This document shows, in pieces, positions 10,444 through 25,262 of a stretch of DNA of 37,611 bases. The translations under genes were made by a program, and so were the position numbers. Source of the stretch: Paludibacteraceae bacterium (GTDB lineage Bacteria; Bacteroidota; Bacteroidia; Bacteroidales; Paludibacteraceae); the NCBI GenBank assembly GCA_024405875.1, contig JAKSOA010000017.1, forward strand, positions 1 to 37,611, read 5' to 3'. Each line of letters starts with the position of its first letter. Within the stretch, counting starts at the first letter, position 1. The notes beneath the pieces are model-generated. The model was not told where the DNA came from and made no database searches. It saw only the letters and a list, made by a program, of their open reading frames with translations.

Positions 10444-13170
10444 ATGAAGAAAGGTATAATAATATCATTAATCTGTATTCTCATAATAGGTTTGTCTGTT
10501 TGGGGATATATTGAGTTACGGAAGAATTCAGTATCTGCTAAAAAAGATTTGTATGAGTCTGTACCAGGAGAACCCTGTGCCGTACTGCAAATAAACAATT
10601 TACGTTCCCTTCAGGAGAGCCTGCTCTATAATAACAACTATTGGCTGAACCTTACAGCAATAAAAACGCTGAATAAAACCCACATATTGCTTGCCGCCCT
10701 TGACTCTCTCAAAGAGAGTGACCCAGTGGTGGCAAGGCTCATTGACCGCAGTGCCCTACTCTCTATATATGAGTCATCAAACAGAGATTCACATTTCCTG
10801 ATAACATCACAAATGTCAATATCTGATTATGAGAAAGCCGCCGAAATTGCCGGCAAATACCTAAAAACCAACGCAAAAACAGAATACTATAATGAATTTC
10901 TCTTAGCGTCGGAATCTGACTCTCTTATAACCTTGGCAAAACAATGCATTGACGCAGGAACCTCTCCCATATTACAAGACCAGGATTTCCACAAGGCAAG
11001 ACTCTCAGCCGGGAACAAGCAGGAGGCAAACATATTCCTAAACGCCGCCAGATGCCAGAATATTATAAGAAAATATGTACTTGAAAGCCGGGAAAGGTTA
11101 TTTACAGTGAGCCGTCAGTATGACAACTGGTGCGGTTATGATGTAGATTTCTCCGTAGATAAAATAGAGATTAACGGATTCGCCTTTTGTAAAAATGGCG
11201 GAGATCTGGTGGCGGCATTCCAGAACCAAAACACAGAGAGAAACACACTATCAGCGGCAATGCCTTATAACACATTCTTTTTCAGGCATTTCGCCATATC
11301 AAACTTAGAAGACTACAAACAGTTGCTATTCCCTGACGACTACTCATTTGATGACACCTACGCAGAAAATTATGAGAATCTCTCAAATGAGACAGACTCA
11401 CTTGAGACAACATCGGGTGAGAATCCAGAGACCTTTATGCAAGAATTTTTCGGAGGCGAGATTGCCTTTGGTTACTCCCCTCTCAATGAATTTGTAATTA
11501 TTAAACTTATAAACGGCTCAGAAGCCTCAGCGGCACTACAACGCATAGCCACCGAACTAAATCCTGACTGTGCAAGTAAATATCAGGGCATTGAGATGTA
11601 TCACATAGGCACAAATGGCTTTGCCGGAAGCATATTCGGTCCATATTTCACCCTTGAAGATGAGTATATTTGTGTTGACGGTGACAATCTTATAATAACC
11701 CCGACTGAGCAATTCACAGCATACATTGCCACCAGAAACCCAAAGACACAGACTCTGCAATGCTCCCCTGTTTTCCGTAGTGCCGACAGAACACTGCTCT
11801 CAACATCAAACCGCTCCATATACATAGATATTCCATACATAGTACGTAACGCATCAAAGTTCTTCACTCCTGAGTTGTCAGAAAAAATCACCGCTGACAA
11901 AGAGATATGGAATGCATTTGACTGCATAGGCTTGCAGAGTGAGAATGAGGGCAAAAATATGGACTATCAGCACATATTCATTCAATATTCAGGTCAGAGA
12001 GGCACATTTGCCGAACTCCCCGATGACACACCTGAGCAAACCGAGGAACTCTTAGCAGCGGCAGAGACTGTTGAGACAGAGACTACTGAGACGGCTACAA
12101 CTAAAACTGAGGCAGAGCAAGTAGCAACCATATCAGGTTCCGTGCAGAAACTATTCACTATAGCACTTGACGCCCCTGCCTGCATAAAGCCACAGATATT
12201 CACAAACCACTATACCGGTGAGAATGAGATATTCATACAAGATGAGAAGAACAACATTTACCTGATATCAGCATCGGGCAAAATACTTTGGAAGACATCT
12301 GTAAAAGAGGCGGTAATCGGGGGTGTGGAAACGGTGGACATTCTCAATAACAAGAAATTACAAATAGCGTTTGTTACAAAAAGCAAACTCTATGTCATTG
12401 ACCGAAACGGCAAAATGGTTTCAGGTTACCCGTTGGCACTCACTGGCGGAGTATGCACTCCACTCGCCGTATTTGACTATGAAGGCAAAAAAGATTACCG
12501 TTTTGCATACGGCACAGAAGATAACAAAGCACATATAATAAAGAAAGACGGCAGCGTGCTTCCTGAATGGAGAAATGTAAGGACAAAGAGCCATATTGAC
12601 GGAAAGATGAGACATTTCCGCCTCAATGGCAAAGATTTCATTGTTTATGCTGACGCAGACAAGTGCTACTTCCTTGACCGCAAGGCAAATGTCCGCCTCA
12701 AATGCGGTGGCACTCTTATTAAATCAAGCGGAAACGAAATCTACACAGATGTAGCAGGAAACAGAATAGCGCTCACCCTATCAAACGGTAAAATCTGTTT
12801 TGTAACCACCGCTGACAAGGCAACCGCCACACAACTGAAGCCGTATGGCGGCAACCACTCATTTGTGCAGTCTGGAGGCTACTACTTCTTTGGCTATGAT
12901 AAAGGATTTGACATCTATGACGCAGACCTGAACCCACTCTACTCTGACAATACAGATGTATCTGCCATAGATGCCTGCGGAAACACCTGTGGCGCATACA
13001 GCAAAAGTGACGGCAAACTATACATCTACCGCCACTCAGGTTCAGACTTTGCAAAAGCCTCAGTCAAAACCACTTCAGACCTTTTCACACTCTCCTCCCT
13101 GAAACCACTCTCAAGCACAGTGGCAATCATCTGCTCAGGCACCAGCCTTGAGGTTTATGGGTTGGATTAG
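10444..13170 (+). CDS. membrane-anchored DUF3352-like protein with beta-propeller-like C-terminus
   Basis: A 908-aa protein. One N-terminal membrane segment (about residues 4-23) with no cleavage motif suggests an anchored periplasmic protein. The next 520 or so residues (starting ESVPGEPCAVLQINNLRSL) resemble the DUF3352 family of unknown function. An acidic, Thr/Glu-rich linker (about 535-565, TEELLAAAETVETETTETAT) leads to a C-terminal region of repeated short strands (ENEIFIQDEKNNIYLISASGK, YVIDRNGKMVSGYPLAL), typical of a PQQ or WD-like propeller. No catalytic motif is visible. The gene follows the PagL-like gene by 70 bp, all of it repeat sequence, so the two may be co-transcribed. A terminator lies 22 bp downstream. 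Family assignment is from general resemblance. Confidence 0.8.
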   Translation: MKKGIIISLICILIIGLSVWGYIELRKNSVSAKKDLYESVPGEPCAVLQINNLRSLQESLLYNNNYWLNLTAIKTLNKTHILLAALDSLKESDPVVARLIDRSALLSIYESSNRDSHFLITSQMSISDYEKAAEIAGKYLKTNAKTEYYNEFLLASESDSLITLAKQCIDAGTSPILQDQDFHKARLSAGNKQEANIFLNAARCQNIIRKYVLESRERLFTVSRQYDNWCGYDVDFSVDKIEINGFAFCKNGGDLVAAFQNQNTERNTLSAAMPYNTFFFRHFAISNLEDYKQLLFPDDYSFDDTYAENYENLSNETDSLETTSGENPETFMQEFFGGEIAFGYSPLNEFVIIKLINGSEASAALQRIATELNPDCASKYQGIEMYHIGTNGFAGSIFGPYFTLEDEYICVDGDNLIITPTEQFTAYIATRNPKTQTLQCSPVFRSADRTLLSTSNRSIYIDIPYIVRNASKFFTPELSEKITADKEIWNAFDCIGLQSENEGKNMDYQHIFIQYSGQRGTFAELPDDTPEQTEELLAAAETVETETTETATTKTEAEQVATISGSVQKLFTIALDAPACIKPQIFTNHYTGENEIFIQDEKNNIYLISASGKILWKTSVKEAVIGGVETVDILNNKKLQIAFVTKSKLYVIDRNGKMVSGYPLALTGGVCTPLAVFDYEGKKDYRFAYGTEDNKAHIIKKDGSVLPEWRNVRTKSHIDGKMRHFRLNGKDFIVYADADKCYFLDRKANVRLKCGGTLIKSSGNEIYTDVAGNRIALTLSNGKICFVTTADKATATQLKPYGGNHSFVQSGGYYFFGYDKGFDIYDADLNPLYSDNTDVSAIDACGNTCGAYSKSDGKLYIYRHSGSDFAKASVKTTSDLFTLSSLKPLSSTVAIICSGTSLEVYGLD

Positions 13171-13191
13171 TACCTTCGTACAATTTTATTT

Positions 13192-13221
13192 CAAAAAAAT
13201 CTGCTAAAGGTGATTTTTTTG
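13192..13221 (+). terminator. terminator-like hairpin after the DUF3352-like gene
   Basis: CAAAAAAATC (13192-13201) and GATTTTTTTG (13212-13221) form a 10-bp stem with a 10-nt loop; the 3' arm supplies the T-run. It ends transcription of the upstream gene. Its 3' arm is the start of the 41-bp direct repeat. Confidence 0.65.
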
Positions 13222-13249
13222 TGTTTTAAGTGAAAATATTTTGCAGAAT
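13209..13249. repeat. left copy of the 41-bp direct repeat flanking the Abi gene
   Basis: The 41 bases are identical to 14303-14343. The repeat spans the 3' arm of a terminator, an A/T-rich spacer and the -33 element (TTTG) of a promoter. The two copies are 1094 bp apart and enclose the Abi_2 gene. Confidence 0.95.
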
Positions 13250-13270
13250 GTAAATTTATTTATAATTTTG
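13240..13270 (+). promoter_or_regulatory. consensus promoter upstream of the Abi gene (TTTG-N19-TAATTTTG)
   Basis: TTTG (13240-13243) and TAATTTTG (13263-13270) are exactly 19 nt apart, the Bacteroidota optimum. Transcription should start near 13277, a few bases before the GC-rich hairpin at 13282. The -33 box and 31 bp upstream are duplicated at 14303-14343. Confidence 0.8.
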
Positions 13271-13276
13271 CACTGA

Positions 13277-13330
13277 CAGAACCCGCCACGCCTCCTAACA
13301 ATGCGCACCAGGGCGGGGCTTTTTTTTACA
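13277..13330 (+). ncRNA. short GC-rich hairpin RNA or attenuator leader upstream of the Abi gene
   Basis: CCCGCC (13282-13287) pairs with GGCGGG (13312-13317), with an inner CGC/GCG, followed by eight T residues (13320-13327). Sitting directly behind a perfect promoter, it would make an RNA of about 50 nt ending at an intrinsic terminator. The Abi gene, starting 10 bp later, would then be made by read-through. It may instead be only a terminator for the upstream gene. Confidence 0.45.
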
Positions 13331-13337
13331 AAGAATT

Positions 13338-14231
13338 ATGTATTCTAAACCTCCAATATCAATAGATGACCAAATTACCCTTCTTAAAGGACGTGGTTTA
13401 TCAATTCCCAATGAAGAGTATGCTCATACTATTTTAGAACATATCAGTTATTATAGATTTGCATCTTATTTGAGACCTATGGAAACAGATAAGAGTACGC
13501 ATAAATTGTATCCTGATGCAACATTTGATAAAGTGTTGTCACTATATCATTTTGATGCTTCCCTTAGACTTTTGGTATTTAATGCAATTCAAGAAATCGA
13601 AATCTCATTACGTTCAAGAATGATTCAAGAGTTCTCTATGAAATATGGAGCCTTTTGGTTTTTTGATGAGTCTCATTTTGTTGATAAGCATAGATTTGTG
13701 GAAAGTATAAATGTGTTGGACAAAGAATTATTGAGATCAAAAGATGAATTTATCAAGGAACATATTGCAAAATACGGAAAGTTAGAATTTCCACCATCTT
13801 GGAAAACACTTGAATTAACATCGTTTGGTACATTATCTAAATTATTTGCAAACTTTTCAGACAACAAACTGAAAAAAGAGATAGCACGTTCCTATGGTAT
13901 TCCTCAACATGAAATTTTTGAATCATGGACGGCCTCTATTGTACCATTGAGAAATTGTTGTGCTCATCATGGAAGATTGTGGAATAAGAAATTTCCAATT
14001 ACACCATTGTTGCCGTCGAGAATGCGTTCTGCGTGGATTTCAGACGTTTCTATTCCAAATAATAAATTATATGCAATACTCTGTTGTGTAATGTATTTGT
14101 TAAATGCAATTGATGCTAACAATTCTTTTGCAAAGGATGTAACAAATCTTATTACAACTAATCCCTATATAAATATTTCTGCAATGGGTTTTCCCTCAAA
14201 ATGGAGGAATGAGACCCTATGGCATTCATAA
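13338..14231 (+). CDS. Abi_2-family abortive infection protein (AbiD/AbiF-like HEPN protein)
   Basis: A 297-aa protein, normal for Abi_2 (PF07751). The N-terminal HISYYRFASYLRPM (about residues 35-48) and the IEISLRSRM segment (about 87-95) are family signatures. RNCCAHHGRLWN carries the HEPN RNase motif Rx4H (Arg205, His210). HEPN proteins of this type are RNases that arrest translation or growth on phage infection; this is family knowledge, not shown here. No antitoxin gene is adjacent. A consensus promoter and a hairpin with a U-run lie directly upstream, and a candidate structured RNA starts 140 bp downstream behind a duplicate of the same promoter region. The gene is AT-rich (28% GC in one counted line), unlike the preceding genes, suggesting transfer. 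Confidence 0.9.
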   Translation: MYSKPPISIDDQITLLKGRGLSIPNEEYAHTILEHISYYRFASYLRPMETDKSTHKLYPDATFDKVLSLYHFDASLRLLVFNAIQEIEISLRSRMIQEFSMKYGAFWFFDESHFVDKHRFVESINVLDKELLRSKDEFIKEHIAKYGKLEFPPSWKTLELTSFGTLSKLFANFSDNKLKKEIARSYGIPQHEIFESWTASIVPLRNCCAHHGRLWNKKFPITPLLPSRMRSAWISDVSIPNNKLYAILCCVMYLLNAIDANNSFAKDVTNLITTNPYINISAMGFPSKWRNETLWHS

Positions 14232-14270
14232 AAAAATTCCTGTTTTCATAGACAATCAATCTTATTAATC

Positions 14271-14314
14271 ATCACCATTAACTCAGCATGCGAGGTAATA
14301 GTGGTGATTTTTTT
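14271..14314 (+). terminator. terminator of the Abi gene
   Basis: ATCACCA (14271-14277) pairs with TGGTGAT (14302-14308), followed by a run of T to 14314. It lies 40 bp after the Abi stop. The 3' arm begins the right copy of the 41-bp repeat. Confidence 0.65.
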
Positions 14315-14343
14315 GTGTTTTAAGTGAAAATATTTTGCAGAAT
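14303..14343. repeat. right copy of the 41-bp direct repeat
   Basis: Identical over 41 bases to 13209-13249. Again it joins a terminator 3' arm to the -33 box of a promoter. Confidence 0.95.
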
Positions 14344-14364
14344 AAATTTTAATTCATACTTTTG
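14334..14364 (+). promoter_or_regulatory. consensus promoter of the candidate ncRNA (TTTG-N19-TACTTTTG)
   Basis: TTTG (14334-14337) and TACTTTTG (14357-14364) are exactly 19 nt apart. The expected start, near 14371, coincides with the first base of a 12-bp long-range stem, which supports an RNA gene here. Confidence 0.8.
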
Positions 14365-14370
14365 CAAGGT

Positions 14371-14680
14371 AGTCCACGCTGATGGCTCCGTTAAAAAGGA
14401 GCGGGTTGTGGGCTATGGGGTGTAGGTCTGAGACCTACAAATGACATATTAAAGGCGTCTGAACGCGCTTTGTTCTTGTCCGTATAGAATCTGGTAAATT
14501 CAAAACTTTATGACAAGGCAATGCGGCATTAGATGTCCGATGGGTATGTAACAGTGTATCCTCTTTATTGAGCGTTTGCACAACATATTCAGCGTGGACT
14601 CGGTGTTGCTTGTTCTTCATAAAGGGGCAATACCAGAGCCTTATACGGTGGAACGGCAACAATGCAGTCCCGCTTTTTTT
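14371..14680 (+). ncRNA. candidate structured non-coding RNA, about 310 nt, unidentified
   Basis: No protein gene is convincing here. Pairings seen: AGTCCACGCTGA (14371-14382) with TCAGCGTGGACT (14589-14600), 12 perfect pairs; a 9-bp hairpin TGTAGGTCT/AGACCTACA (14421-14439); GCTCC/GGAGC (14385-14402); TGTTGC/GCAACA (14604-14609 with 14656-14661); and AGCGGG (14400-14405) with CCCGCT (14669-14674) just before seven T residues. The last pairing would form a pseudoknot with the first. TAGTCCAC/GTGGGCTA (14370-14377 with 14408-14415) is an alternative to the 12-bp stem, so the RNA may switch form. I looked for tmRNA, RNase P and SRP hallmarks and found none. It lies between an Abi gene and a candidate defence operon. 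Base composition is more balanced than in the AT-rich neighbours. Confidence 0.65.
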
Positions 14681-14917
14681 ATGCCCTTTTGTAAGCAAAA
14701 CAAGGACAACTGTTGCCCTATCCGCTACAAAATGTAGACTTTTAGAAACATTTTAACACTGATTAACACTTTTTAACATTATAAAAGATTTATGGCTAAT
14801 AGACAAAATGCGTTTTAGTGAAGAATCTTTTGAGCGATAGCAAGAATTTTTAATGACCTTAGGTAAATCTTTATCAACCATCAGATAAATCTAAAAATAA
14901 AACAGAGTAAAAACACT
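14681..14917. other. AT-rich intergenic region upstream of the four-gene operon
   Basis: It contains three spaced TTAACA-type repeats (14753-14780) and a degenerate family A dispersed repeat (about 14826-14858, TTTTGAGCGATAGCAAGAAT). No consensus TAnnTTTG promoter with a -33 box was found for the operon that follows. The TTAACA repeats could be operator sites; this is a guess. Confidence 0.4.
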
Positions 14918-16057
14918 ATGAAACTAATACGTACATTTCACCCTGTAGGACATGGAGCCTTTTATACAGAGAGGTTCTATGAAGGCGGAGAATGTGTGTT
15001 TACCGCAGTGTATGATTGCGGAAGCGACACACTAAATGGCAGTAGTTTAGCAACACTCATTGGTGGTGCACTACACGGAGAACCTATAGATGTATTGTTC
15101 CTGTCTCATTTCCATAGTGACCATGTAAATGGTTTCTCCGTTATCAAAAATCAGTGTACTAAGATAATATTACCTGTTATCTCAACAGAGGAAAGAGATA
15201 TGTCATTTATTCACAATGCTATTGTAACAGGAAGGGTTGATAATGAGGCTAATAATTTACTAAAGAGAGTTTTTTCTCAAGTCGATGATAGTGAGAATTA
15301 CCAAATAATTAAAGTCGATTCAGTACGCGAACCTGTTGAACCCTCTAATGCAGAACCAATAGAAATAGAATCCGTTAATACAACCATTCCAGCGGGAGCA
15401 CCTTTATACAGCAGAAAAGTTCCTAATTGGATTTATTTGCCATATAATTTGCACCACGATGTCAATCATGCCATTAAAAATTTCTTTATAGAGAAAGGTA
15501 TCTTGAATGCAGGAGGAGGAGTTAACACAGACAGACTAAGTGAGATTATAAACGGAACAGCACACGATGGTATGTCTTTGAGAAATATAAGGATGAAGTA
15601 TAATGCGGTACTCCGACAAAATAATCCTAATCAACATTCAATGACCGTATATTCTGGCTACAAAGATTGCGATGTGTGTTGTAAGTGTAGAAGGCATTAT
15701 CGTCATAGGTATTGTTGTGATTTTGACTGTCCATTCCAAGCCAATTGTTTATATACAGGTGATTTTGTCGCTTCAGAGTCAAATGTTGAAAAATTGGAAC
15801 AATTTTACGATGACTATTTATATTCAAGTGCTACAGTGCAAATACCTCATCATGCATCAGCAAATGTAGGCGGACACTATGGAGATGATATATTTAGATA
15901 TGCAAGAATTGGAATTATTTCAACGCAGTTTGGTAAATATTCCAGTATGCCATCAAATGATGTTGTGATGAATATTATGGATGAAGGCGTTGTTCCCCTG
16001 TTTGTAACGGAACATAAAAGGTCAATAGTTGAGAGAATGTATTATTTGCTTGATTAG
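14918..16057 (+). CDS. metallo-beta-lactamase-fold hydrolase with Cys-rich insertion (operon gene 1)
   Basis: A 379-aa protein. SHFHSDH (His64, His66, Asp68, His69) is the HxHxDH metal site of the MBL fold, and LYTGDF (Asp282) and IPHHAS (His311/312) supply the later ligands. The overall plan resembles the competence-type (ComEC C-terminal) MBL group. Between residues 251 and 277 lies an insertion with eight Cys and several His (CDVCCKC..RYCCDFDC..C), which probably binds one or two extra zinc ions. MBL-fold proteins act as nucleases, phosphodiesterases or nucleotide hydrolases; the substrate here is unknown. The start ATG follows an A-rich leader. Gene 2 follows after 15 bp. The AT-rich composition (30% GC in one counted line) suggests transfer. 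Confidence 0.8.
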   Translation: MKLIRTFHPVGHGAFYTERFYEGGECVFTAVYDCGSDTLNGSSLATLIGGALHGEPIDVLFLSHFHSDHVNGFSVIKNQCTKIILPVISTEERDMSFIHNAIVTGRVDNEANNLLKRVFSQVDDSENYQIIKVDSVREPVEPSNAEPIEIESVNTTIPAGAPLYSRKVPNWIYLPYNLHHDVNHAIKNFFIEKGILNAGGGVNTDRLSEIINGTAHDGMSLRNIRMKYNAVLRQNNPNQHSMTVYSGYKDCDVCCKCRRHYRHRYCCDFDCPFQANCLYTGDFVASESNVEKLEQFYDDYLYSSATVQIPHHASANVGGHYGDDIFRYARIGIISTQFGKYSSMPSNDVVMNIMDEGVVPLFVTEHKRSIVERMYYLLD

Positions 16058-16072
16058 AAATTGGAGTTATTT

Positions 16073-16744
16073 ATGTGTGAGTGTTGTCCATATAATAAAC
16101 AGGAACAATTGGAGGAAAGACGAGACAAAGTCCTGAAGATGCGGAATTTTCATTATGAGAATTTCAACAAGTGGTCCTCGTTTTTCTACATAATTGTAGG
16201 TGCATTGTTTGTTGGATACTATAATGTGGTAGGTCAGGGACATTCTGTTGTAGTTGAATGTTCAATTATAATTCTTGGATTAATTGTTAGTGTATGCTGG
16301 CATTTGTCAAATAAGGGCTATTATTTTTGGGAGTTGCATTGGGTTTTCTTTGTTCTTGATTTAGAGCAGAAAATGAGTGATGACAAAAAAATTTATTCTT
16401 TGTTTTATCAAAAGGGGAAGAAAGATAATGAAAATCCTGTATTGAATGATGGCCAATATTTTAGACCGTGGAAACCAGCAAACATCTCAACTTCAAAAGT
16501 GACTTTAGTTTTATCATTTATAGTGTCTCTTACTTGGAGTTTCCTATTGTGTGAAAGAGTTTATAAATATGTAATAACAGTTAATAAAATATCCTTAACG
16601 TGTTCATGCAAATGGGTATGGCTTGTCATATGTCTTCTAATATCTGTTGGATTAATTTATTTATTGATTTTGATTGGCTCATATATAAAGAGTCCTTTGG
16701 ATCACACAATTAAAATGTTTGATCCAGAAAACAAGAAAAATTGA
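16073..16744 (+). CDS. four-helix membrane protein, RipA-like (operon gene 2)
   Basis: From the ATG at 16073 the protein has 223 aa; a TTG at 16061 in frame is possible, but GGAG at 16063-16066 is better placed for the ATG. Four hydrophobic segments are seen: WSSFFYIIVGALFVGYY (about 34-50), a second at about 62-82, a third at about 143-160 and a fourth at about 180-205. A cytosolic-looking loop between helices 2 and 3 holds KGYYFWELHW and YFRPWKPANIS. The pattern recalls the RipA-type octameric membrane proteins, but I hold this loosely. Small membrane proteins in defence operons are often the effector that disrupts the membrane; that role is inference from context. Confidence 0.7.
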   Translation: MCECCPYNKQEQLEERRDKVLKMRNFHYENFNKWSSFFYIIVGALFVGYYNVVGQGHSVVVECSIIILGLIVSVCWHLSNKGYYFWELHWVFFVLDLEQKMSDDKKIYSLFYQKGKKDNENPVLNDGQYFRPWKPANISTSKVTLVLSFIVSLTWSFLLCERVYKYVITVNKISLTCSCKWVWLVICLLISVGLIYLLILIGSYIKSPLDHTIKMFDPENKKN

Positions 16745-16754
16745 TTCTGTTTTA

Positions 16755-18191
16755 ATGAATATCAAATATTCCATATTGCACATTTCTGACTTGCATAAAG
16801 TGCCAAGTCAATCATATGATGATTTATTGCTTTCTTTAGAAAATGATAGTGAAGCAAGAGAGGAGGAAGGTATAAGTAAAGAAAAAATAATAGTTATAAG
16901 CGGAGATTTGATAGAGGGAGACAAAAATCGTAGAGGAGACTATAATAAAAGGATTGAGAATCAATACAACGAAGTCAGTGATTTTTTAAAAAAATTAGTG
17001 GATGCAGTGTTGGATGGAGATAAAAGGCGTTTAATTATTGTTCCTGGCAATCATGATTTCAGTATGCCAGATTCCATAAGAAGTATGGTAAAGTCTCCAT
17101 CTAAGAAAAGACAGTTAGATTATGTTATAGATAAAGAATTGCAGTCTATTCGTTGGAATTGGAAAGATTTTTCGTTTTATTATATTAATCAACAAGATTT
17201 ATATGATGCTCGTTTTCATGCTTTTGAAAAATTCTATAATGAATTTTTCAATGGAATATACACACTTCCTAAGAATGTTGAATGTAATGCGTATATTGTT
17301 GATTTAGAAGAATTTAATATAACTTTTATATGTTTTAATAGTTGTTATAGATTGGATCATTTAAATCAAACTGGATGTATATGTCCTAGTGCATTAACTA
17401 AAATCCAACCAGAATTACGTAAATATTATAGACAAGGTAGGTTAATAATAGGAGTTTGGCATCATCATATTGCTGGATTACCACATGAAAACAATTATAT
17501 GGATAATCGTATTTTGAATGCTATGATGAAGAGTCACATTCAGATTGGTCTTTTTGGTCATCAACATAAATCAGAAATATTGCATGAGTATAGAGACATT
17601 TCTTCTGATCAAAATATGCTATTAATTAGTAGCGGAACTTTATACGGTGGTACAGAAGCACAATTTGATGGGCAAAAAAGACAATTTAATGTTTTGGAAG
17701 TGAATATGAACACTAAACAAAACAAAGCTAATATTACTATCCATTGCAGAGAAGATAAGAGCATAGATAATTTTGCTATTCCCGATTGGGGTGTTAAAGG
17801 TATTGGAGTAAAAGGTAAAGATAAAGTTGATTATGAAATTTCGTTGTTTGAGCCAGATATTAAAGCAAAGATACTTAGTGTTAGCAAGCAAGTTTATATG
17901 GATAATAATTATTATGGAGCATGTTTAAAATTGAAAAAAATTGGTTTGAAGGATGATATGTGTTGTAAAGTTTACGAATCGTACTTAAAACTACTTAATG
18001 ATCAGCAAAAAATAGTGTTGATTGGACTGAACCCGATGACCAATGTTCAATATATGTATGTTTTAGATGCGGCTATGAATAAAAGAAATAAAAATTTGAT
18101 AATTAAACTTCTTTCAGATAAGTATTTGAGATTTGATAGTGTGCAAGTAAATGAATTGAAAGATAAAGCAAGATTGGAAATATCATTATGA
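16755..18191 (+). CDS. calcineurin-like metallophosphoesterase (operon gene 3)
   Basis: A 478-aa protein from the ATG at 16755. A TTG at 16719 lies inside gene 2 and would put 12 residues before MNIKYSILHISDLH, which reads as a natural start. The metal-site motifs come in order: ISDLH (DxH), VISGDLIEGD (GD), VPGNHDF (GNHD), WHHHIAG and GHQHKSE (GHxH). This is a complete two-metal phosphoesterase core, about residues 5-310. The C-terminal 150 or so residues match nothing I recognise. Substrates in the family include nucleic acids, cyclic nucleotides and phosphoproteins; DNA or RNA would suit a defence role, but this is not shown. It ends in a 4-bp overlap (ATGA) with gene 4, so the two are translationally coupled. 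Confidence 0.85.
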   Translation: MNIKYSILHISDLHKVPSQSYDDLLLSLENDSEAREEEGISKEKIIVISGDLIEGDKNRRGDYNKRIENQYNEVSDFLKKLVDAVLDGDKRRLIIVPGNHDFSMPDSIRSMVKSPSKKRQLDYVIDKELQSIRWNWKDFSFYYINQQDLYDARFHAFEKFYNEFFNGIYTLPKNVECNAYIVDLEEFNITFICFNSCYRLDHLNQTGCICPSALTKIQPELRKYYRQGRLIIGVWHHHIAGLPHENNYMDNRILNAMMKSHIQIGLFGHQHKSEILHEYRDISSDQNMLLISSGTLYGGTEAQFDGQKRQFNVLEVNMNTKQNKANITIHCREDKSIDNFAIPDWGVKGIGVKGKDKVDYEISLFEPDIKAKILSVSKQVYMDNNYYGACLKLKKIGLKDDMCCKVYESYLKLLNDQQKIVLIGLNPMTNVQYMYVLDAAMNKRNKNLIIKLLSDKYLRFDSVQVNELKDKARLEISL

Positions 18192-20497
18192 GCGAGAAAA
18201 TAAAATTTAACATACAGATGAATCGTGTTTTAGATTTGCTGTGTTCGCAAATTTATGATTCGCCATTAGCATTATTAAGAGAGAATGTTCAAAATGCTTA
18301 TGATGCTATTCTAATGCGTCAATCCAAAAAGGAAAGTAAATATCAGCCACAGATATGTGTTGAAATATTTTCTGATAAAATCATTATCAAAGACAATGGT
18401 ATTGGGATGGATTCAAAGATTCTAAAAAATAATTTTTGGACTGCTGGATCCAGTGGAAAAAACACGGAAGAAGCTAAAAATGCGGGAGTAATTGGTACAT
18501 TTGGGATAGGTGCAATGGCTAATTTTGGTGTTTGTAAATCTATTAGGGTCATTACCAGAGCCTATGGTAGTAATGTTACCTACACATCATATGTGGATAA
18601 AGATAAACTGTCACTAAATGAAAATTCCATTATCATAGAAGAGAATGTTGACAATTTACTTGACTATGGAACCCAAATAGTGGCGATATTAGACGAAAAT
18701 GTTTGTATTCAACTTAATGAGGCAATGGAATATTTGATACCGTATGTCGAATATCTGCCAGTCCCAGTCGTAATTAATAATGAAAATATAAGTCAAAAAA
18801 TATTGAATACCAATGGTTCTAAAAATATTTGTGAACATAAAGATGAGGGTTGGATTTCATTTGATTATAAAGTTTCATATTTTGATAAAGCAAAATTAAT
18901 ACCCCAGATATATTTGACTAATTTGGTAATAAAAGGGAATTTAATTAATGGTTGTGTGTTTCTTGAGCAAAATGCAGGTATTTTATTTGGTTTGCGTAAT
19001 TATTTTGGTTTAGCACCAGTCCCTATTTATACAACATTTAATTTGGGTGGGATTGTTAATCTCCCAACATTAGTACCAACTGCAGGACGAGAAGCAGTAA
19101 GCAGAGAAAGTATAGAAGAAGTTGCTAAAATAGTTAAGGTTGCAGAACGAATTATTGCAGAGACCTTAGCTGCAGATGAATTTGCCGCAGACAACAGTAG
19201 GGAGTTGCTGGCATATATAAAAAATAATAAACGTTATGATTTGGCATATAATGTTTGTATTGGCACAGCTGATAATGCAATGCGATATCCTCTAAAAATG
19301 TGTCAAGATACAATTAGTGGAAAAATGGTATATTATTATGAAGGGAATGATAATTCTATTATAAATAATTTGCTTAATGGAGAAAATGTAGTTTTAGTTC
19401 CTGCAAATGATTATATCAGACGGCACATACAATTGAATGTTCTAAAAAGACAAAAAGTGAAATTAATTAAAGATAATATTAAAGTAGATAAAATAAGAGA
19501 ATCTGATTACACATTTCAGCAATGGACAATAGTTGCAAAAATTAAAATGATTTTACAAGAAGATTATTTTTTGCCCAATGTCCAGGTATGTTTTGGAACA
19601 ATATCACATCAATTAAATATTTTTTTGTCTAATGAAAATGGTTCAATAGCAATATATTTAACTAAAGATTCTGATGATGTGTTATGCTTAACGAAAATAA
19701 TTGATCAGAACTTTGGTTATTTTGAACCAATGGTCAAAGAATTTATAAGAAATAAAATTTATCCGAATCTTTCGCCGTACATACCATCATCTATTAAAGG
19801 TGATTTGAATGCATTATATGACACACTTCAAAAAAACAAAGATTTGTATATAATAGATGCAAATGAACTTGGGGAGGTTAAAAGTGTAATGGTAAATTAC
19901 GTTGATGGCAAAACAGACTTTAAACAAGTATTGCAAATTTCAAAACTTATTAAAAACAAACAAATAATATCTGTTGGCAGTTCTCAAGTTGGCGATATCA
20001 CAATTAATTTGAGTCAACATCTAGATAAATCTGATATCTTATATGCACGTACAATTAAGAATACTCAAGAAGAAGATGAACTTTGTGCAAAACCTCCTAT
20101 TATGCGCGATGATGTTCAAATTAAGCATAAAGTGTTAATAGGGAGAAACGAAAACGAAACGATTAATGGTTATAATACATTCTTAGCGGTATCAGACAAG
20201 ATGTTTGAGAGATATAGTTCCTTTTTTAGATTTCCTCATTCCATGAGAGTTATTTGGAGTATGCACAAGATAATATACATATTTACTCTTGTGGATAACA
20301 AGATAACGTTATACTATGATATTGAATTGGAAAAAAAATTGAGAGATAATGAAATAGGTGGTGATGAATTTAGATCTTCAACAATAATCACCAAAGATAA
20401 AATATTTATACCAGTAATTAATAAATTGGCAGATTACTTTAATATATCAACAGGGCAATTAAAATTTACTGTGAGATTTGATATAGTTAATGGCTAA
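18188..20497 (+). CDS. Hsp90/HtpG-like GHKL ATPase (operon gene 4)
   Basis: A 769-aa protein. The Bergerat ATP site is complete: LLRENVQNAYDA (Glu32, Asn36), DNGIGMD (69-75) and GTFGIG (103-108). At about 296-307, VPTAGREAVSRES matches the middle-domain loop that in HtpG supplies the catalytic Arg (SRE, Arg306 here). The remaining 450 residues, with many Lys and Ile, match no family I can name and are not the normal Hsp90 C-terminus. The protein is therefore not an ordinary HtpG but a diverged Hsp90-like ATPase that may act as a sensor or switch for the two hydrolases of the operon. The start ATG overlaps the stop of gene 3. GC is very low (27% in one counted line). Confidence 0.85.
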   Translation: MSEKIKFNIQMNRVLDLLCSQIYDSPLALLRENVQNAYDAILMRQSKKESKYQPQICVEIFSDKIIIKDNGIGMDSKILKNNFWTAGSSGKNTEEAKNAGVIGTFGIGAMANFGVCKSIRVITRAYGSNVTYTSYVDKDKLSLNENSIIIEENVDNLLDYGTQIVAILDENVCIQLNEAMEYLIPYVEYLPVPVVINNENISQKILNTNGSKNICEHKDEGWISFDYKVSYFDKAKLIPQIYLTNLVIKGNLINGCVFLEQNAGILFGLRNYFGLAPVPIYTTFNLGGIVNLPTLVPTAGREAVSRESIEEVAKIVKVAERIIAETLAADEFAADNSRELLAYIKNNKRYDLAYNVCIGTADNAMRYPLKMCQDTISGKMVYYYEGNDNSIINNLLNGENVVLVPANDYIRRHIQLNVLKRQKVKLIKDNIKVDKIRESDYTFQQWTIVAKIKMILQEDYFLPNVQVCFGTISHQLNIFLSNENGSIAIYLTKDSDDVLCLTKIIDQNFGYFEPMVKEFIRNKIYPNLSPYIPSSIKGDLNALYDTLQKNKDLYIIDANELGEVKSVMVNYVDGKTDFKQVLQISKLIKNKQIISVGSSQVGDITINLSQHLDKSDILYARTIKNTQEEDELCAKPPIMRDDVQIKHKVLIGRNENETINGYNTFLAVSDKMFERYSSFFRFPHSMRVIWSMHKIIYIFTLVDNKITLYYDIELEKKLRDNEIGGDEFRSSTIITKDKIFIPVINKLADYFNISTGQLKFTVRFDIVNG

Positions 20498-20565
20498 GAC
20501 ATACAGAATAAAGTAGTTCAATGAATTAATAACAACAAATCAAATAACTTAAAACATTAAAAATT

Positions 20566-22851
20566 ATGGAAAAACAGAAATTATTAAAAAGTTTAAAACG
20601 CAGGTTAGGGTTGATAACAACCATACTTGCAATGTTATTGGTAAGCCAAGGTGCTTTTGCAGCATACACATGGAGTGTAGTTGGTTTAGGTGGTGATTGG
20701 AGCAAAGATTATGAGCTTAAAAACATCTCAGGAAATTATTACGCCGCTGATATTTCTGTGAGCGCAACAACTGATTTTAAAATCAGAAAGAATCAGGCAT
20801 GGACTGAATCTTACGGAGAAGCCCAGATAACAACTTCATCTAACTTTAATATCAGCAACTCAGGAGGTAATAACGCAAAAATTACGATATCATCATCTGG
20901 TATATATAAGTTTATTTGGAATTCATCAAGTAAAAAACTGACAGTCATTTATCCATCACCTCAATTGAATATAAAACAATCTAGTTCAAGTTGGACACAA
21001 CCATCTTTGACTTATAATTCAACAACAACAAAATATTCTGGACAGGTTGCAATTTCATCAATCTATAGCGATGGTGTTGTTCAAGTAAAAAACGGTAATA
21101 ATTATGTTGGTAATGATGGCTCTGCTAAAATGCAAAGAGACAACTGTTCTGGTTGGAATTTTACAACAACAAGTAAGCAGACGGGTATTAATTTTGATGT
21201 TCCTGGAACCTATACATTTAATTTTGACCCGTATGCAGGTACAATGTCAGTAACATATCCGTATGTTGTTTTTGGTAATTTTGATGGTAATGGTAATAAG
21301 GCATATCCGCTTGATAGTGATGGTAAGGCAACAATTAAAATTACTGCTGGGAATAGAACTTTTAGAATGGCAACAGATAAGTGGCGTGGTTGTTCTCAAT
21401 GTTCAATAACAAGAAGTAATTGTACAGACATACAACAATATGACTCAGATGGAGGAGATACGCCAATAAATGCGGATGTGACAGGAGATTATGAATTTAC
21501 ATATAATCTATCTACTTGTAAGGTGACTGTCACCTACCCAACCGTCTATACCGCAAAAGCACAAGTTGGTTCTGTAGCAGGTGGTACAGTTACAATTGAT
21601 ACAGAGACTGCCTCTTCCACTTCAATTTCAAAAACTGTTGTATCAGGTACTGCAGTAGATTTTAAGGCTACTAAATCTTCAGGTTATAATTTCAAAGGCT
21701 GGGGCACAACATCTTCTGCTACATCGTATGAGAGTACAGACAACCCATATAATGTAACAATATCAGCAGACAAAACTCTTTACGCAATCTTTGAGTCGGC
21801 TTGCACCACCCCAACTGCAGGAAGTATAGGCGGTACAACAAGTATTTGTGCTGGTAATGGTACCACTTTAACATTGAGCGGTCAAACTGCCGGTACTAAC
21901 TTGCAGTGGTATAAATCTACCGATGGCTCATCATACAGTGCTGTATCGAGTGCTACAGGTACATCACTTTCAACAGGCACTCTTAATGCTAACGCATATT
22001 ATAAGGTTAGAGTGTCAAGAACAGATGACGCTTCTTGCTACTCAGAAACAACACCTGTTACTGTCACCGTCACCCAAATCCCGTCTATCGCAACACACAC
22101 TGATGGCTCACGTTGCGGTGCTGGTACCGTAACAGTGAGTGCTACAGCAAGTGCTGGTGATGTTAAATGGTATTCAGCCTCTACTGGTGGCATTGCCCTT
22201 AAAACAGGTACATCTTATACAACACCAAGCATAAGTACTACAACAAAATATTATGTTGATGCCACACAGAATGGCTGTACCACAGCATCAAGAACTGCTG
22301 TTACCGCAACAGTAAAGACTGTGCCTTCTGTATCAAACATAGCCCTAACAGGTTCTGGTGAGTGCGGTGCAGGCGATGTTACTTTTACCGCAACAGCAAC
22401 TCAAGGTTCAACCGTTAATTGGTTTGAAGGGGCTTCTGCGGCAGGAAGCGGAAATGAAAAGATTGTTAATATTGCCGCAGGTGGCTCTAAAACACTAACT
22501 GCAAAAGCAACAATGGATGGTTGTACTGAGACAACAGGAAAGAGTGCTACAGGCTCACGTAAAGCAGTTCCGAACCTTACTACAACCCCATCAGGTAGTG
22601 CTGTTACCGCATATCTTTGGGAGCCGGTTAATCTGACCGCCACCACAACAGATGGTACGGCTACAGTAGCCATCAGTACTGCCGCTACCAAATATGAGGT
22701 GGCTGATATAACCAATGGTAAGTCTCTTAAGGCAGGTAATGCTGATGATACTTTTAGCGTTACTTATACTGCCACAAGCCCTAATGGTTGCCAAACACAA
22801 GAGGTAAAGACCGTTACTGCGGAAAAAGCCACTGAGTTCTGCGGCAACTAA
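20566..22851 (+). CDS. secreted multi-domain Ig-like protein, apparently lacking a C-terminal sorting domain
   Basis: A 761-aa protein with a clear signal peptide (to about residue 32, SQGAFA). Residues about 33-325 hold three or four beta-sandwich modules with repeated YxWSVVG and KLTVIYPSP-like strands, as in SusE/F-type or starch-binding proteins. About 335-410 resembles a Listeria-Bacteroides (InlB B) repeat (YNFKGWG..TLYAIFE). The rest has three Ig-like domains (Ig_7 type, for example CGAGTVTVSATASAGDVKWY). It stops at EKATEFCGN without a recognisable type IX sorting domain, so the reading frame may be truncated; a dispersed repeat lies 34 bp after the stop. It is related in style to the giant protein at the left edge. 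The ligand is unknown. Confidence 0.8.
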   Translation: MEKQKLLKSLKRRLGLITTILAMLLVSQGAFAAYTWSVVGLGGDWSKDYELKNISGNYYAADISVSATTDFKIRKNQAWTESYGEAQITTSSNFNISNSGGNNAKITISSSGIYKFIWNSSSKKLTVIYPSPQLNIKQSSSSWTQPSLTYNSTTTKYSGQVAISSIYSDGVVQVKNGNNYVGNDGSAKMQRDNCSGWNFTTTSKQTGINFDVPGTYTFNFDPYAGTMSVTYPYVVFGNFDGNGNKAYPLDSDGKATIKITAGNRTFRMATDKWRGCSQCSITRSNCTDIQQYDSDGGDTPINADVTGDYEFTYNLSTCKVTVTYPTVYTAKAQVGSVAGGTVTIDTETASSTSISKTVVSGTAVDFKATKSSGYNFKGWGTTSSATSYESTDNPYNVTISADKTLYAIFESACTTPTAGSIGGTTSICAGNGTTLTLSGQTAGTNLQWYKSTDGSSYSAVSSATGTSLSTGTLNANAYYKVRVSRTDDASCYSETTPVTVTVTQIPSIATHTDGSRCGAGTVTVSATASAGDVKWYSASTGGIALKTGTSYTTPSISTTTKYYVDATQNGCTTASRTAVTATVKTVPSVSNIALTGSGECGAGDVTFTATATQGSTVNWFEGASAAGSGNEKIVNIAAGGSKTLTAKATMDGCTETTGKSATGSRKAVPNLTTTPSGSAVTAYLWEPVNLTATTTDGTATVAISTAATKYEVADITNGKSLKAGNADDTFSVTYTATSPNGCQTQEVKTVTAEKATEFCGN

Positions 22852-23483: not shown

Positions 23484-25262
23484 ATGAGAAAACACCTTAT
23501 TTTTTTAGTTTTATTGTTTGCCACACTTAGTGCTTTTGCAGGTTCATTTAGTTTTAACGGTGGATATATATTTTTTGATAATACCGTAACCAAATGGGAT
23601 TGTCCGCATATACTGCTTGTGATAGGTAATGATGGCTACAGTTCTGTTTATGAGATGTTTGATGATGAGGGCAAGGGTTCATTTAAGTGTTCACTGCCAT
23701 ACGGTTGGTCAGATGCCACATATATGGCTGTAATAGCAAGTTCAAATGTCTGGGACTCCGGCTCTTGGGGCAGCAGTAATCTTAAAAACGCAAAGGCTTA
23801 TTCTAAGGCTTATACCGCAGGGCTGGAATCTAAAGAGAAACAAGGCTTCAAGTTCACTCCGCAGGCAGCAGGTAATGATTGCAAACTATCTCTTACGTGG
23901 TTAGGCGACGATTTTCCAAACTTCACTTTCTCTGATGAATCAAAGAACAACTGCTATGAGATAGATGAGAAAGCAGGCACCATAAAGTTCATAATGTCAA
24001 CTTCAAGCAAGCGTTTTAACATTGACCCTAACTAAGTAAAGAAAGTCTATGTATATGGCTCTATATCGGCTTGGAATAACGCCGATGAGTATTACCGCCT
24101 TACCCGTTACAGTTTTGACGGTTGCTTCTACATTATTCTGCCACTGTCAGCCATTGAGCGTCCAGGTAACAGCGGAGCGCCTGAATTCCTGTTCCATATT
24201 TACAAGACAGACGGCACAGACTATACAGAGCGTTCTCATCAGTCTTGGAAAGGTGGTATTGACAGCCGACTACTATTTGAAAACAATGGTATAAATATGT
24301 GTGTGGCATTCTCTGAAGCAGAGAAGAATGAACTTGCAGAGCGTGCCAAGATAGCCAAGTATGTGGCTCCTCTTAAAGATTTTGACCTTACAAAAGAGTC
24401 AGACCAAAAGCGTATCAGTAATTTCCGTGGAGTGCCAGGCACTACAAAACTGTTCCGCAGTTACCACCCATACAAGCCTGACCGCACCAAGTTTGAGACA
24501 GAACATGAGCGTATGGTTTGGGTTGCCAAGAACGCCGCAAACGCAGGCATAAAGTGTGATTTAGCCCTATCGGGGAATGAGGAGAAGCACGCTGGTGAAA
24601 AATATACTTGTGGCGGTAAAGAATATACAATTACCATACCTGATTACTATAAGAGCATTATAGCCAATAAAAATGTGCTTTATGTAGGCACCAAGAATGG
24701 CAAGACTCCTACTTTTGATGATGCCATATATCACTCAGACGGAGAGACTTACGCAGAGTGGATTAAGGAACTTGTGGAGTTTGTGATAGATGACGCACAC
24801 CCTGCTCCTTTCCAAATTCACTGTAGTCTTGGCTCTGACCGCACAGGCTCTTTTTGTGCCACCATTGCGGCTCTTTGCGGTGCAAGTTGGGAGGAGATAG
24901 CAGAAAATTATGAAGCCACTACTAATCTTCAGATTCAGGAGTTCAGACATCGCAATGTAATGAAATATCACCTTAAGAATATGACGGGTGTTGACCCTAC
25001 AACTTGTAAAGATTTACAACAAGTGGTTGCTGACCATTTTATTAAGGGCGGTTACCTGACAGCAGAGCAGATTGAAAAATTCAGGGTAAAACTGAATGAC
25101 ACTACAGAAGATACAACAATTCCTGCTGACGGCGATAACGGCGAGGCTCAAGGTGTAAACAGTATTAAGGTTATAGAAGGTAATAACGCAGAAATAACCA
25201 TATATAAGACCGCTCTTGGTCACCCCACCATTGCCTACACCCTTTCTGGTAAGCAGAAATAA
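23484..25262 (+). pseudogene. secreted tyrosine/dual-specificity phosphatase interrupted by an in-frame TAA
   Basis: The frame begins with a signal peptide (MRKHLIFLVLLFATLSAFAG) and a beta-rich module, meets TAA at 24033-24035, and continues open in the same frame to 25262. The first part alone would give 183 aa. Sequence just after the stop (VKKVYVYGSISAWN) reads as a normal continuation, so one nonsense change is the simplest cause. The second part holds the phosphatase signature HCSLGSDRTG (Cys at 24822-24824, Arg six residues on), giving a Cx5R loop, with FRSYHPYKPDR upstream. Family members remove phosphate from Tyr or other phosphorylated targets; a secreted form could act on host or periplasmic substrates. 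A restart at the ATG 24297 would lack the signal peptide. A sequencing error or readthrough cannot be excluded. Confidence 0.75.

Follow-up and report, generated by a model that had tools for sequence, protein, structure and literature searches.

A metallophosphoesterase and an Hsp90-like ATPase as the conserved core of a candidate mobile defence locus in a Paludibacteraceae bacterium

The locus and its genes

The window analysed here, the whole 37,611-nucleotide stretch of contig JAKSOA010000017.1 from a Paludibacteraceae bacterium (assembly GCA_024405875.1), contains a compact group of four genes that encode, in this order, a metallo-β-lactamase (MBL)-fold hydrolase, a membrane protein of the 8xMP family, a calcineurin-like metallophosphoesterase (MPE) and an Hsp90-like ATPase of the GHKL type (Table 1). 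A preliminary description had presented them as a four-gene operon and as a candidate new defence system. The four genes are indeed co-directional, with intergenic distances of 15, 10 and −4 bp and ATG starts throughout; for the second and third, the open reading frame (ORF) tool also gives earlier TTG starts. They are not chance ORFs, the longest stop-free run reaching 776 codons compared with a maximum of 138 among 50 mononucleotide shuffles. The catalytic motifs reported earlier are intact: HxHxDH at residue 64 of the MBL protein, SDLH, SGD, GNHD, WHH and GHxH in the MPE, and the N-box and glycine motifs of the ATPase. The block is low in guanine plus cytosine (GC), as had been noticed (31.2%, compared with 44.0% and 44.3% in two flanking stretches), but the 28–30% first given is true of the last two genes only (36.5, 31.7, 29.4 and 30.0% for MBL, 8xMP, MPE and Hsp90-like, respectively), and the figure of about 50% for the flanks was too high.

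Table 1. Features of the window around the MPE and Hsp90-like genes
Feature	Positions	Strand	Evidence or remark
Core gene 1, calcineurin-like metallophosphoesterase (MPE), 478 aa	16755..18191	+	Metallophos 7e-12 (Pfam)
Core gene 2, Hsp90-like GHKL ATPase, 769 aa	18188..20497	+	HATPase_c_3 7e-10 (Pfam)
Accessory MBL-fold hydrolase, 379 aa	14918..16057	+	Lactamase_B 9e-6 (Pfam)
Accessory 8xMP membrane protein, 223 aa	16073..16744	+	8xMP (PF24838) 7e-20 (Pfam)
Cargo block, 5762 bp	14769..20530	+	73 bp in its place in congener G822
Conserved gene, hotspot left side	10444..13170	+	identity 55% in G822, 57% in G691
abiF RNA, neighbouring system	13282..13318	+	RF03085, 45.1 bits
AbiF/AbiD gene, neighbouring system	13338..14231	+	Abi_2 1.8e-52 (Pfam); PADLOC AbiD 1.7e-80
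Structured RNA-like element	14366..14692	+	promoter-like start, terminator-like end
Short leader stretch	14702..14788	+	recurs upstream of RdrA-like genes (L204, L220) and of a surface-protein gene (L220)
Immunoglobulin (Ig)-like surface-protein gene, hotspot right side	20566..22851	+	Pfam; relatives beside other cassettes

A conserved pair with accessory genes

What recurs in other genomes (numbered G; individual loci are numbered L) is the second half of the group. The MPE gene lies immediately upstream of the Hsp90-like gene in all 16 relatives that have upstream sequence, and the ends of the two genes overlap in 14 of them. In a survey of one genome per species, with at least 80 loci, the seven full-length relatives of the ATPase (441 to 516 bits) were all accompanied by an MPE relative, compared with none of the 73 N-terminal-only matches (HtpG-like or other GHKL proteins, at most 79 bits), which rules out chance pairing. 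The other relatives counted are two plasmids, a member of the order (cut by the contig end), a member of the class, a congener, a family member and three viral contigs; two more Pseudomonas aeruginosa plasmid records that matched in the same way were left out, as were the viral contigs L258 and L259, which begin at the ATPase gene and carry apparent near-copies of it. The MPE is represented by two ORFs in L035 and by one shortened ORF in L255. The two proteins have diverged together: over 12 pairs, a set that includes the window and leaves out L033, L035 and the viral contigs, their distances correlate with a Mantel r of 0.87 (a value reached in none of 2000 permutations), and the MPE and ATPase motifs searched for are kept in 12 of 12 pairs. 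Judged by organism name, and with phylum placements that are in part our own presumption, the hosts belong to the Bacteroidota, Alpha- and Gammaproteobacteria and Chloroflexota, in addition to the three viral contigs.

These counts depend on the query. With the full-length ATPase, 157 of 295 genomes of the order matched, mostly over the N-terminal domain, the own genome and G052 being the only ones to reach far past it among the matches listed; later counts therefore used an alignment of the C-terminal part (A3). Among IMG/VR viral contigs, a single Hsp90-like protein found no match and an alignment found five. Annotated phages yielded short N-terminal matches only (5 records), and the DNA of the P. 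aeruginosa pair had no match in Escherichia coli genomes.

The first two genes have a distribution of their own. MBL was found in the same run as the pair in one of the 16 relatives and 8xMP in none, the content of the L176 run being taken from its gene list and the others compared by BLAST, with only 1180 bases available upstream of the MPE in L033 and 569 in L035. The MBL protein, which has an HFHSDH motif and a Cys-rich stretch near residues 251–266, has relatives (E ≤ 1e-10) in 6 of 295 genomes of the order and 16 of 300 of the family, own genome included both times. These relatives often lie in no recognised setting; one elsewhere in the own genome adjoins an RdrB gene (4.8e-40), another on a Pseudomonas putida plasmid adjoins a NACHT gene (PGAP name), and that of L125 lies downstream of what appear, by eye, to be ABC-three-component genes. 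BLAST found no MPE relative at the MBL loci beside RdrB and NACHT genes. The 8xMP protein, with four hydrophobic segments in the window, scores above the Pfam cutoff in 14 of 295 genomes of the order (own included) and had no match in plasmids; solved structures offered no trustworthy relative of it (best E 0.18) and none of MBL. By-eye inspection of its neighbours elsewhere suggested an OLD-type ATPase in L161 and a PIN gene in L172.

We also considered MBL and 8xMP as a conserved pair in their own right and dropped this idea, neither being found beside the other outside the window. There was no MBL relative (BLAST, 1e-3) in 14 surroundings of 8xMP genes (L160–L173; 13 above the Pfam cutoff and one below) and no 8xMP relative in 22 MBL surroundings besides that of the window (L122–L129 with the window query, L204–L217 with five queries), a set with several short contigs, three fragmentary MBLs and, in L215, an MBL uncalled as a gene. 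By this distribution, MBL and 8xMP are accessories and the conserved unit is two genes, MPE and Hsp90-like, not four. The earlier view of the four genes as one conserved system is not supported: its authors had named rare co-occurrence in other genomes as the observation that would refute it, and outside the window we did not meet all four together. The same comparison, applied to the core pair, leaves it standing.

The two core proteins

The ATPase, described at the outset as Hsp90-like, resembles Hsp90 beyond its GHKL domain. The N-terminal ATPase domain is of Hsp90 type (hhalign 99.2%, E 2.9e-19 to HtpG, profile columns 4–207) and fold comparison finds an Hsp90-type middle domain, the HtpG profile match being confined to the N domain. 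The C-terminal part is less clear, with a model confidence (predicted local distance difference test, pLDDT) below 50 at residues 533–568, 580–591 and 610–629 and most fold matches ending near residue 540 or before. The catalytic arginine loop of Hsp90 has the consensus LNxSRE; here, an invariant PTAGR (residues 297–301), recognised by eye, is a candidate for this loop. We consider the protein to be a divergent member of the Hsp90 family, with Hsp90-like N and middle domains and perhaps a C-terminal region of its own; the protein differs from HtpG, TRAP1 and Hsp90 in its fixed MPE partner, its rarity and a C-terminal part that is either different or poorly modelled. A second, different protein of 800 aa, GHKL-like by eye and without PADLOC match, is encoded at 11933–14335 in L176, directly upstream of the pair and beside a type II restriction–modification (R-M) system.

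The MPE consists of an N-terminal catalytic domain and a C-terminal helical region (~369–477). The latter is perhaps tetratricopeptide repeat (TPR)-like, and the C-terminal part weakly matches ANAPC3, which we take to be a TPR-type family, in 2 of 10 members. In fold comparison, the MPE comes nearest to the YydB model, SMPDL3A and purple acid phosphatases, protein phosphatases such as calcineurin and PP2A ranking lower. The fold comparison bears on residues 1–536 of the ATPase and 1–366 of the MPE, and not on the families to which the parts beyond might belong.

A chromosomal site with exchangeable contents

A congener, G822, carries the same site without the four genes. Its positions 1501–1904 align with 14369–14768 of the window (87%) and 1978–2101 with 20531–20654 (82%), the interval between the two alignments holding, in the window, the four genes and little else. 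The site is framed in G822 by left-hand genes 76% and 55% identical to those of the window and by a right-hand gene 94% identical, which we read as purL; in G691 it is framed by a left-hand gene of 57% identity and a relative (90%) of the window gene at 24297–25262. There, the contents are a nucleotidyltransferase-like gene (by eye), a copy of the RNA-like element, an RdrA-like ATPase, RdrB (4.1e-33), two more genes, one of them with modest PDC-S31 matches, and a surface protein. At a second G691 locus, a single run comprises RdrA-like, RdrB (3.9e-39), MBL, a gene X, MPE, Hsp90-like and a related surface protein, without 8xMP; MBL, MPE and Hsp90-like are 37%, 51% and 58% identical to their window counterparts, and X (155 aa) has no detectable relation to 8xMP. 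The two RdrB genes of G691 share 53% identity and the two RdrA-like genes 43%. The RdrA-like ATPases have no PADLOC RdrA match at 1e-5, and that of L204 aligns (3e-11) with a neighbour that matches RdrA at 4e-34. One chromosomal slot can thus be filled, in this genus, either by RdrA-like/RdrB genes or by the MBL-8xMP-MPE-Hsp90 block.

Several loci of the genus (L204, L218, L220 together with L124, and L254) carry RdrA-like and RdrB genes with varying additional genes downstream and, after these, a surface protein whose first residues are M(E/K)TKNLL, the contig ends of L220 and L124 being taken as one locus. At 23484–25262 of the window, three consecutive ORFs apparently match a single 592-aa gene of G691 (L254, reverse-complement coordinates 15523–17301); the start is near-identical by eye and the last part 90% identical, so that the window copy looks broken.

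All four genes could nevertheless be one indivisible system, in which an Hsp90-like switch would command two hydrolase effectors and a membrane effector, the roles suggested in the preliminary description. The close spacing of the genes, the presence of the whole block in the window and its absence in G822, and the renewed meeting of MBL, MPE and Hsp90-like in G691 speak for such a system. We consider it unlikely in view of the scarcity of MBL and 8xMP around the pair elsewhere, as well as of the MBL relatives that lie beside RdrB and NACHT genes with no MPE relative found there.

The Abi gene and structured RNA that had been noted next to the operon were recovered upstream as an abiF RNA and an Abi_2/AbiD gene, together with a second, RNA-like element. 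The latter has five locations in the own genome, which gave six match rows with the window counted, and was detected in 22 of the 101 genomes compared, again counting the own one. Different genes lie downstream where examined; the copies of G000 C35 and G691 C3 immediately precede RdrA-like genes. Its predicted pairing shows two-sided change in 20 of 76 pairs (5 copies), and Rfam offered nothing credible beyond abiF upstream of the operon (best other E 0.53). The element is not operon-specific, because it is repeated in the genome and in relatives before different genes; on the strength of these copies, we dropped the idea that it belongs to the operon and regard it either as a feature common to the hotspot or as a general RNA. 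A 91% direct repeat (13209–13272 and 14303–14366) with a promoter-like stretch flanks the abiF RNA and AbiF gene; the arrangement looks like the result of an insertion of this cassette at the second element's promoter.

Mobile setting and defence neighbours

The pair has the traits of mobile genes. Its GC content is below that of the flanks in nine of nine loci (by under 1 point in L032), it occurs on two conjugative plasmids and three IMG/VR contigs, and in L256 it lies amid genes read by eye as terminase and Mu-like transposase. Downstream of the pair, a serine-recombinase-like gene (by eye) is present in L038 (8178–9890) and L040 (12553–14262), one from an alphaproteobacterium and one from a Dehalococcoidia genome.

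For 14 of the 16 relatives (L033 and L035 were left out), we scanned one to six flanking proteins per locus, picked by eye. A strong PADLOC match lay nearby at 7 of these 14 partly scanned loci, a raw count of hand-picked neighbours without control neighbourhoods and not an enrichment. The pair adjoins type II R-M in L037 and L176, and type I R-M genes lie near it in L223 and L036. The remaining strong matches are LmuA and LmuB in L032 (ABC-three-component genes according to PGAP) and LmuB in L036, the candidate defence family PDC-S01 in L038 and RdrB in L204; mad8 matches in L040 (3.5e-10) and L257 (1.6e-12) were left uncounted.

From mobile setting, pairing and defence neighbours, we judge a defence role probable, as the preliminary description had proposed, and predict from this genomic context that the locus is in all likelihood a mobile defence cassette in a chromosomal hotspot. 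Widening the neighbour count from 11 to 14 loci brought no further strong match near the pair; we hold to this estimate because the added scan confirmed RdrB at the site shared with G691. Several observations weigh against it, beginning with the raw nature of the neighbour count itself. The other seven scanned loci (L031, L034, L039, L040, L255, L256 and L257) had no strong PADLOC match, with only one to three proteins scanned in each of the last three. No named defence model was matched above its cutoff, DS9_1 (NF053862) reaching 51.8 bits compared with 420. The family is rare, with 2 of 395 genomes of the phylum and 3 of 300 of the family (own included in both), and the site comparison fits either gain in the window or loss in G822. 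The proteins may also have a chaperone or phosphatase role outside defence. In its simplest form, a housekeeping stress chaperone with its phosphatase, unrelated to conflict, such a role would agree with the Hsp90 fold, but it appears highly improbable for genes that are rare, patchy, low in GC, carried by plasmids and viral contigs, absent from the same site in a congener and co-located with R-M and RdrB genes.

In eukaryotes, the phosphatase PP5 is a partner of Hsp90. By analogy, the pair could be an accessory chaperone–phosphatase that matures or regulates its neighbours (RADAR, R-M, Lamassu/ABC-3C-like), its MPE acting on proteins as PP5 does. The position of the pair inside or adjoining different systems, the eukaryotic Hsp90–phosphatase partnership (titles of PDB entries 8gae and 8gft) and the helical C-terminal part of the MPE with its ANAPC3 match are consistent with this idea. 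Yet no system was recognised among the few proteins scanned at the seven loci just listed, and protein phosphatases stand below YydB, SMPDL3A and purple acid phosphatases in the fold ranking of the MPE; we regard such an accessory function as rather doubtful.

Comparison with known systems

In agreement with the initial impression, the combination matches no named system well. The four proteins had only weak and partial PADLOC matches and NCBIfam scores far below cutoff, and so did the pair proteins of the scanned relatives, including the Hsp90-like protein of L176. Among the closest counterparts, YydD, which we take to be the SMC/ABC-type ATPase of an ABC-3C-like operon, is not Hsp90-like. 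Its partner YydB (presumably chain B of the YydD–YydB integrative model, PDB 9a6c) is among the nearest folds of the MPE. DS-9 combines an MPE with a HAD phosphatase and DS-8 is an MPE–NACHT protein, and defence by both requires MPE residues, according to the portions consulted of the DefensePredictor report (PMC13092281); here, the partner is an Hsp90-like ATPase, and Pfam found neither a HAD nor a NACHT domain in the four proteins. VcSduA is a Shedu protein with a GHKL domain (PMC12137116, in the part consulted). VcSduA and MzaB resemble our protein in having a GHKL ATPase as the likely control domain and differ from it in that ours has an Hsp90-type middle domain and no fused nuclease; MzaB profiles gave weak matches in two relatives, L031 and L032.

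The MBL protein invites another comparison. MBL nucleases have been captured together with proteases by several defence systems and are 'gated' in Avs1, Hachiman, Lamassu and DRT, as described in the consulted part of PMC12799240. The window MBL weakly matches LmuA (1.6e-4) and shares with these nucleases a repeated capture by different systems. Among its relatives, those of L124 and L125 match LmuA and RTasMBL, and that of L125 also Avs1a. Gated MBL pairs have a protease, trypsin-like or other, encoded next to the MBL, and no peptidase family was detected in the four proteins and both neighbours (Pfam, E ≤ 1). As for RADAR, its RdrB shares a run with MBL, MPE and Hsp90-like in G691, whereas the window locus lacks RdrA and RdrB: the interval 13170–22851 lists AbiF, the four genes and the surface protein, with no RdrA or RdrB match in Pfam or PADLOC. 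We found no phosphoesterase system with an Hsp90-family partner in the defence models and in the parts of the open-access literature consulted, an absence that is weak evidence. Phosphoesterase effectors are known from recently validated defence systems, and, as far as we have seen, an Hsp90-like switch is new to modular systems of this kind.

A proposed Hsp90-type switch and its implications

Hsp90 clamps alter their shape with ATP and bind client proteins. The fixed partnership of a dedicated Hsp90-like protein with a single phosphoesterase suggests an enzyme under the control of a switch. The explanation that we favour, with about an even chance of being correct, is an anti-phage or anti-mobile-element cassette with a two-gene core, in which the Hsp90-like protein would control the MPE. 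The two proteins would form a complex in which the clamp binds ATP and keeps the MPE, or a client of the MPE, inactive. A phage product recognised as a client, or the folding stress of infection, would shift the state of the clamp and turn the MPE on. The enzyme would then hydrolyse a phosphodiester, be it in a nucleotide, a cyclic nucleotide or a nucleic acid, and this activity would stop the infection, perhaps together with growth arrest. The MBL protein, a nuclease candidate that also accompanies systems such as RADAR, and the membrane protein would be exchangeable extra effectors.

The tight overlap, conserved gene order and mobile settings would likewise suit a toxin–antitoxin-like or plasmid-stabilising module, in which a toxic MPE is neutralised by the Hsp90-like protein. 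However, an ATPase of 769 aa is large for an antitoxin, and an antitoxin released by stress would be hard to distinguish from the defence model; we give this alternative a slim chance.

The favoured switch has a chaperone-based precedent, DnaJ mediating phage sensing by bNACHT25 (PMC12169576, in the part consulted). The same part recalls the role of Hsp90 in the immunity conferred by nucleotide-binding leucine-rich repeat (NLR) proteins and reports that deletion of htpG had no effect there. More tentatively, the locus may encode a dedicated bacterial immune Hsp90, a paralogue of the chaperone whose ATP-driven clamp would sense infection, with phage proteins as clients for example, and would gate a phosphoesterase effector bound to it through which a C-terminal helical domain is contributed. 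If this is true, such an immune Hsp90 would parallel both the association of Hsp90 with the TPR-phosphatase PP5 and the control of NLR immune receptors by Hsp90. If the pair does defend its hosts, the chaperone itself would be the immune switch, and these bacteria would provide a small two-gene system for asking how Hsp90-type clamps sense foreign proteins.

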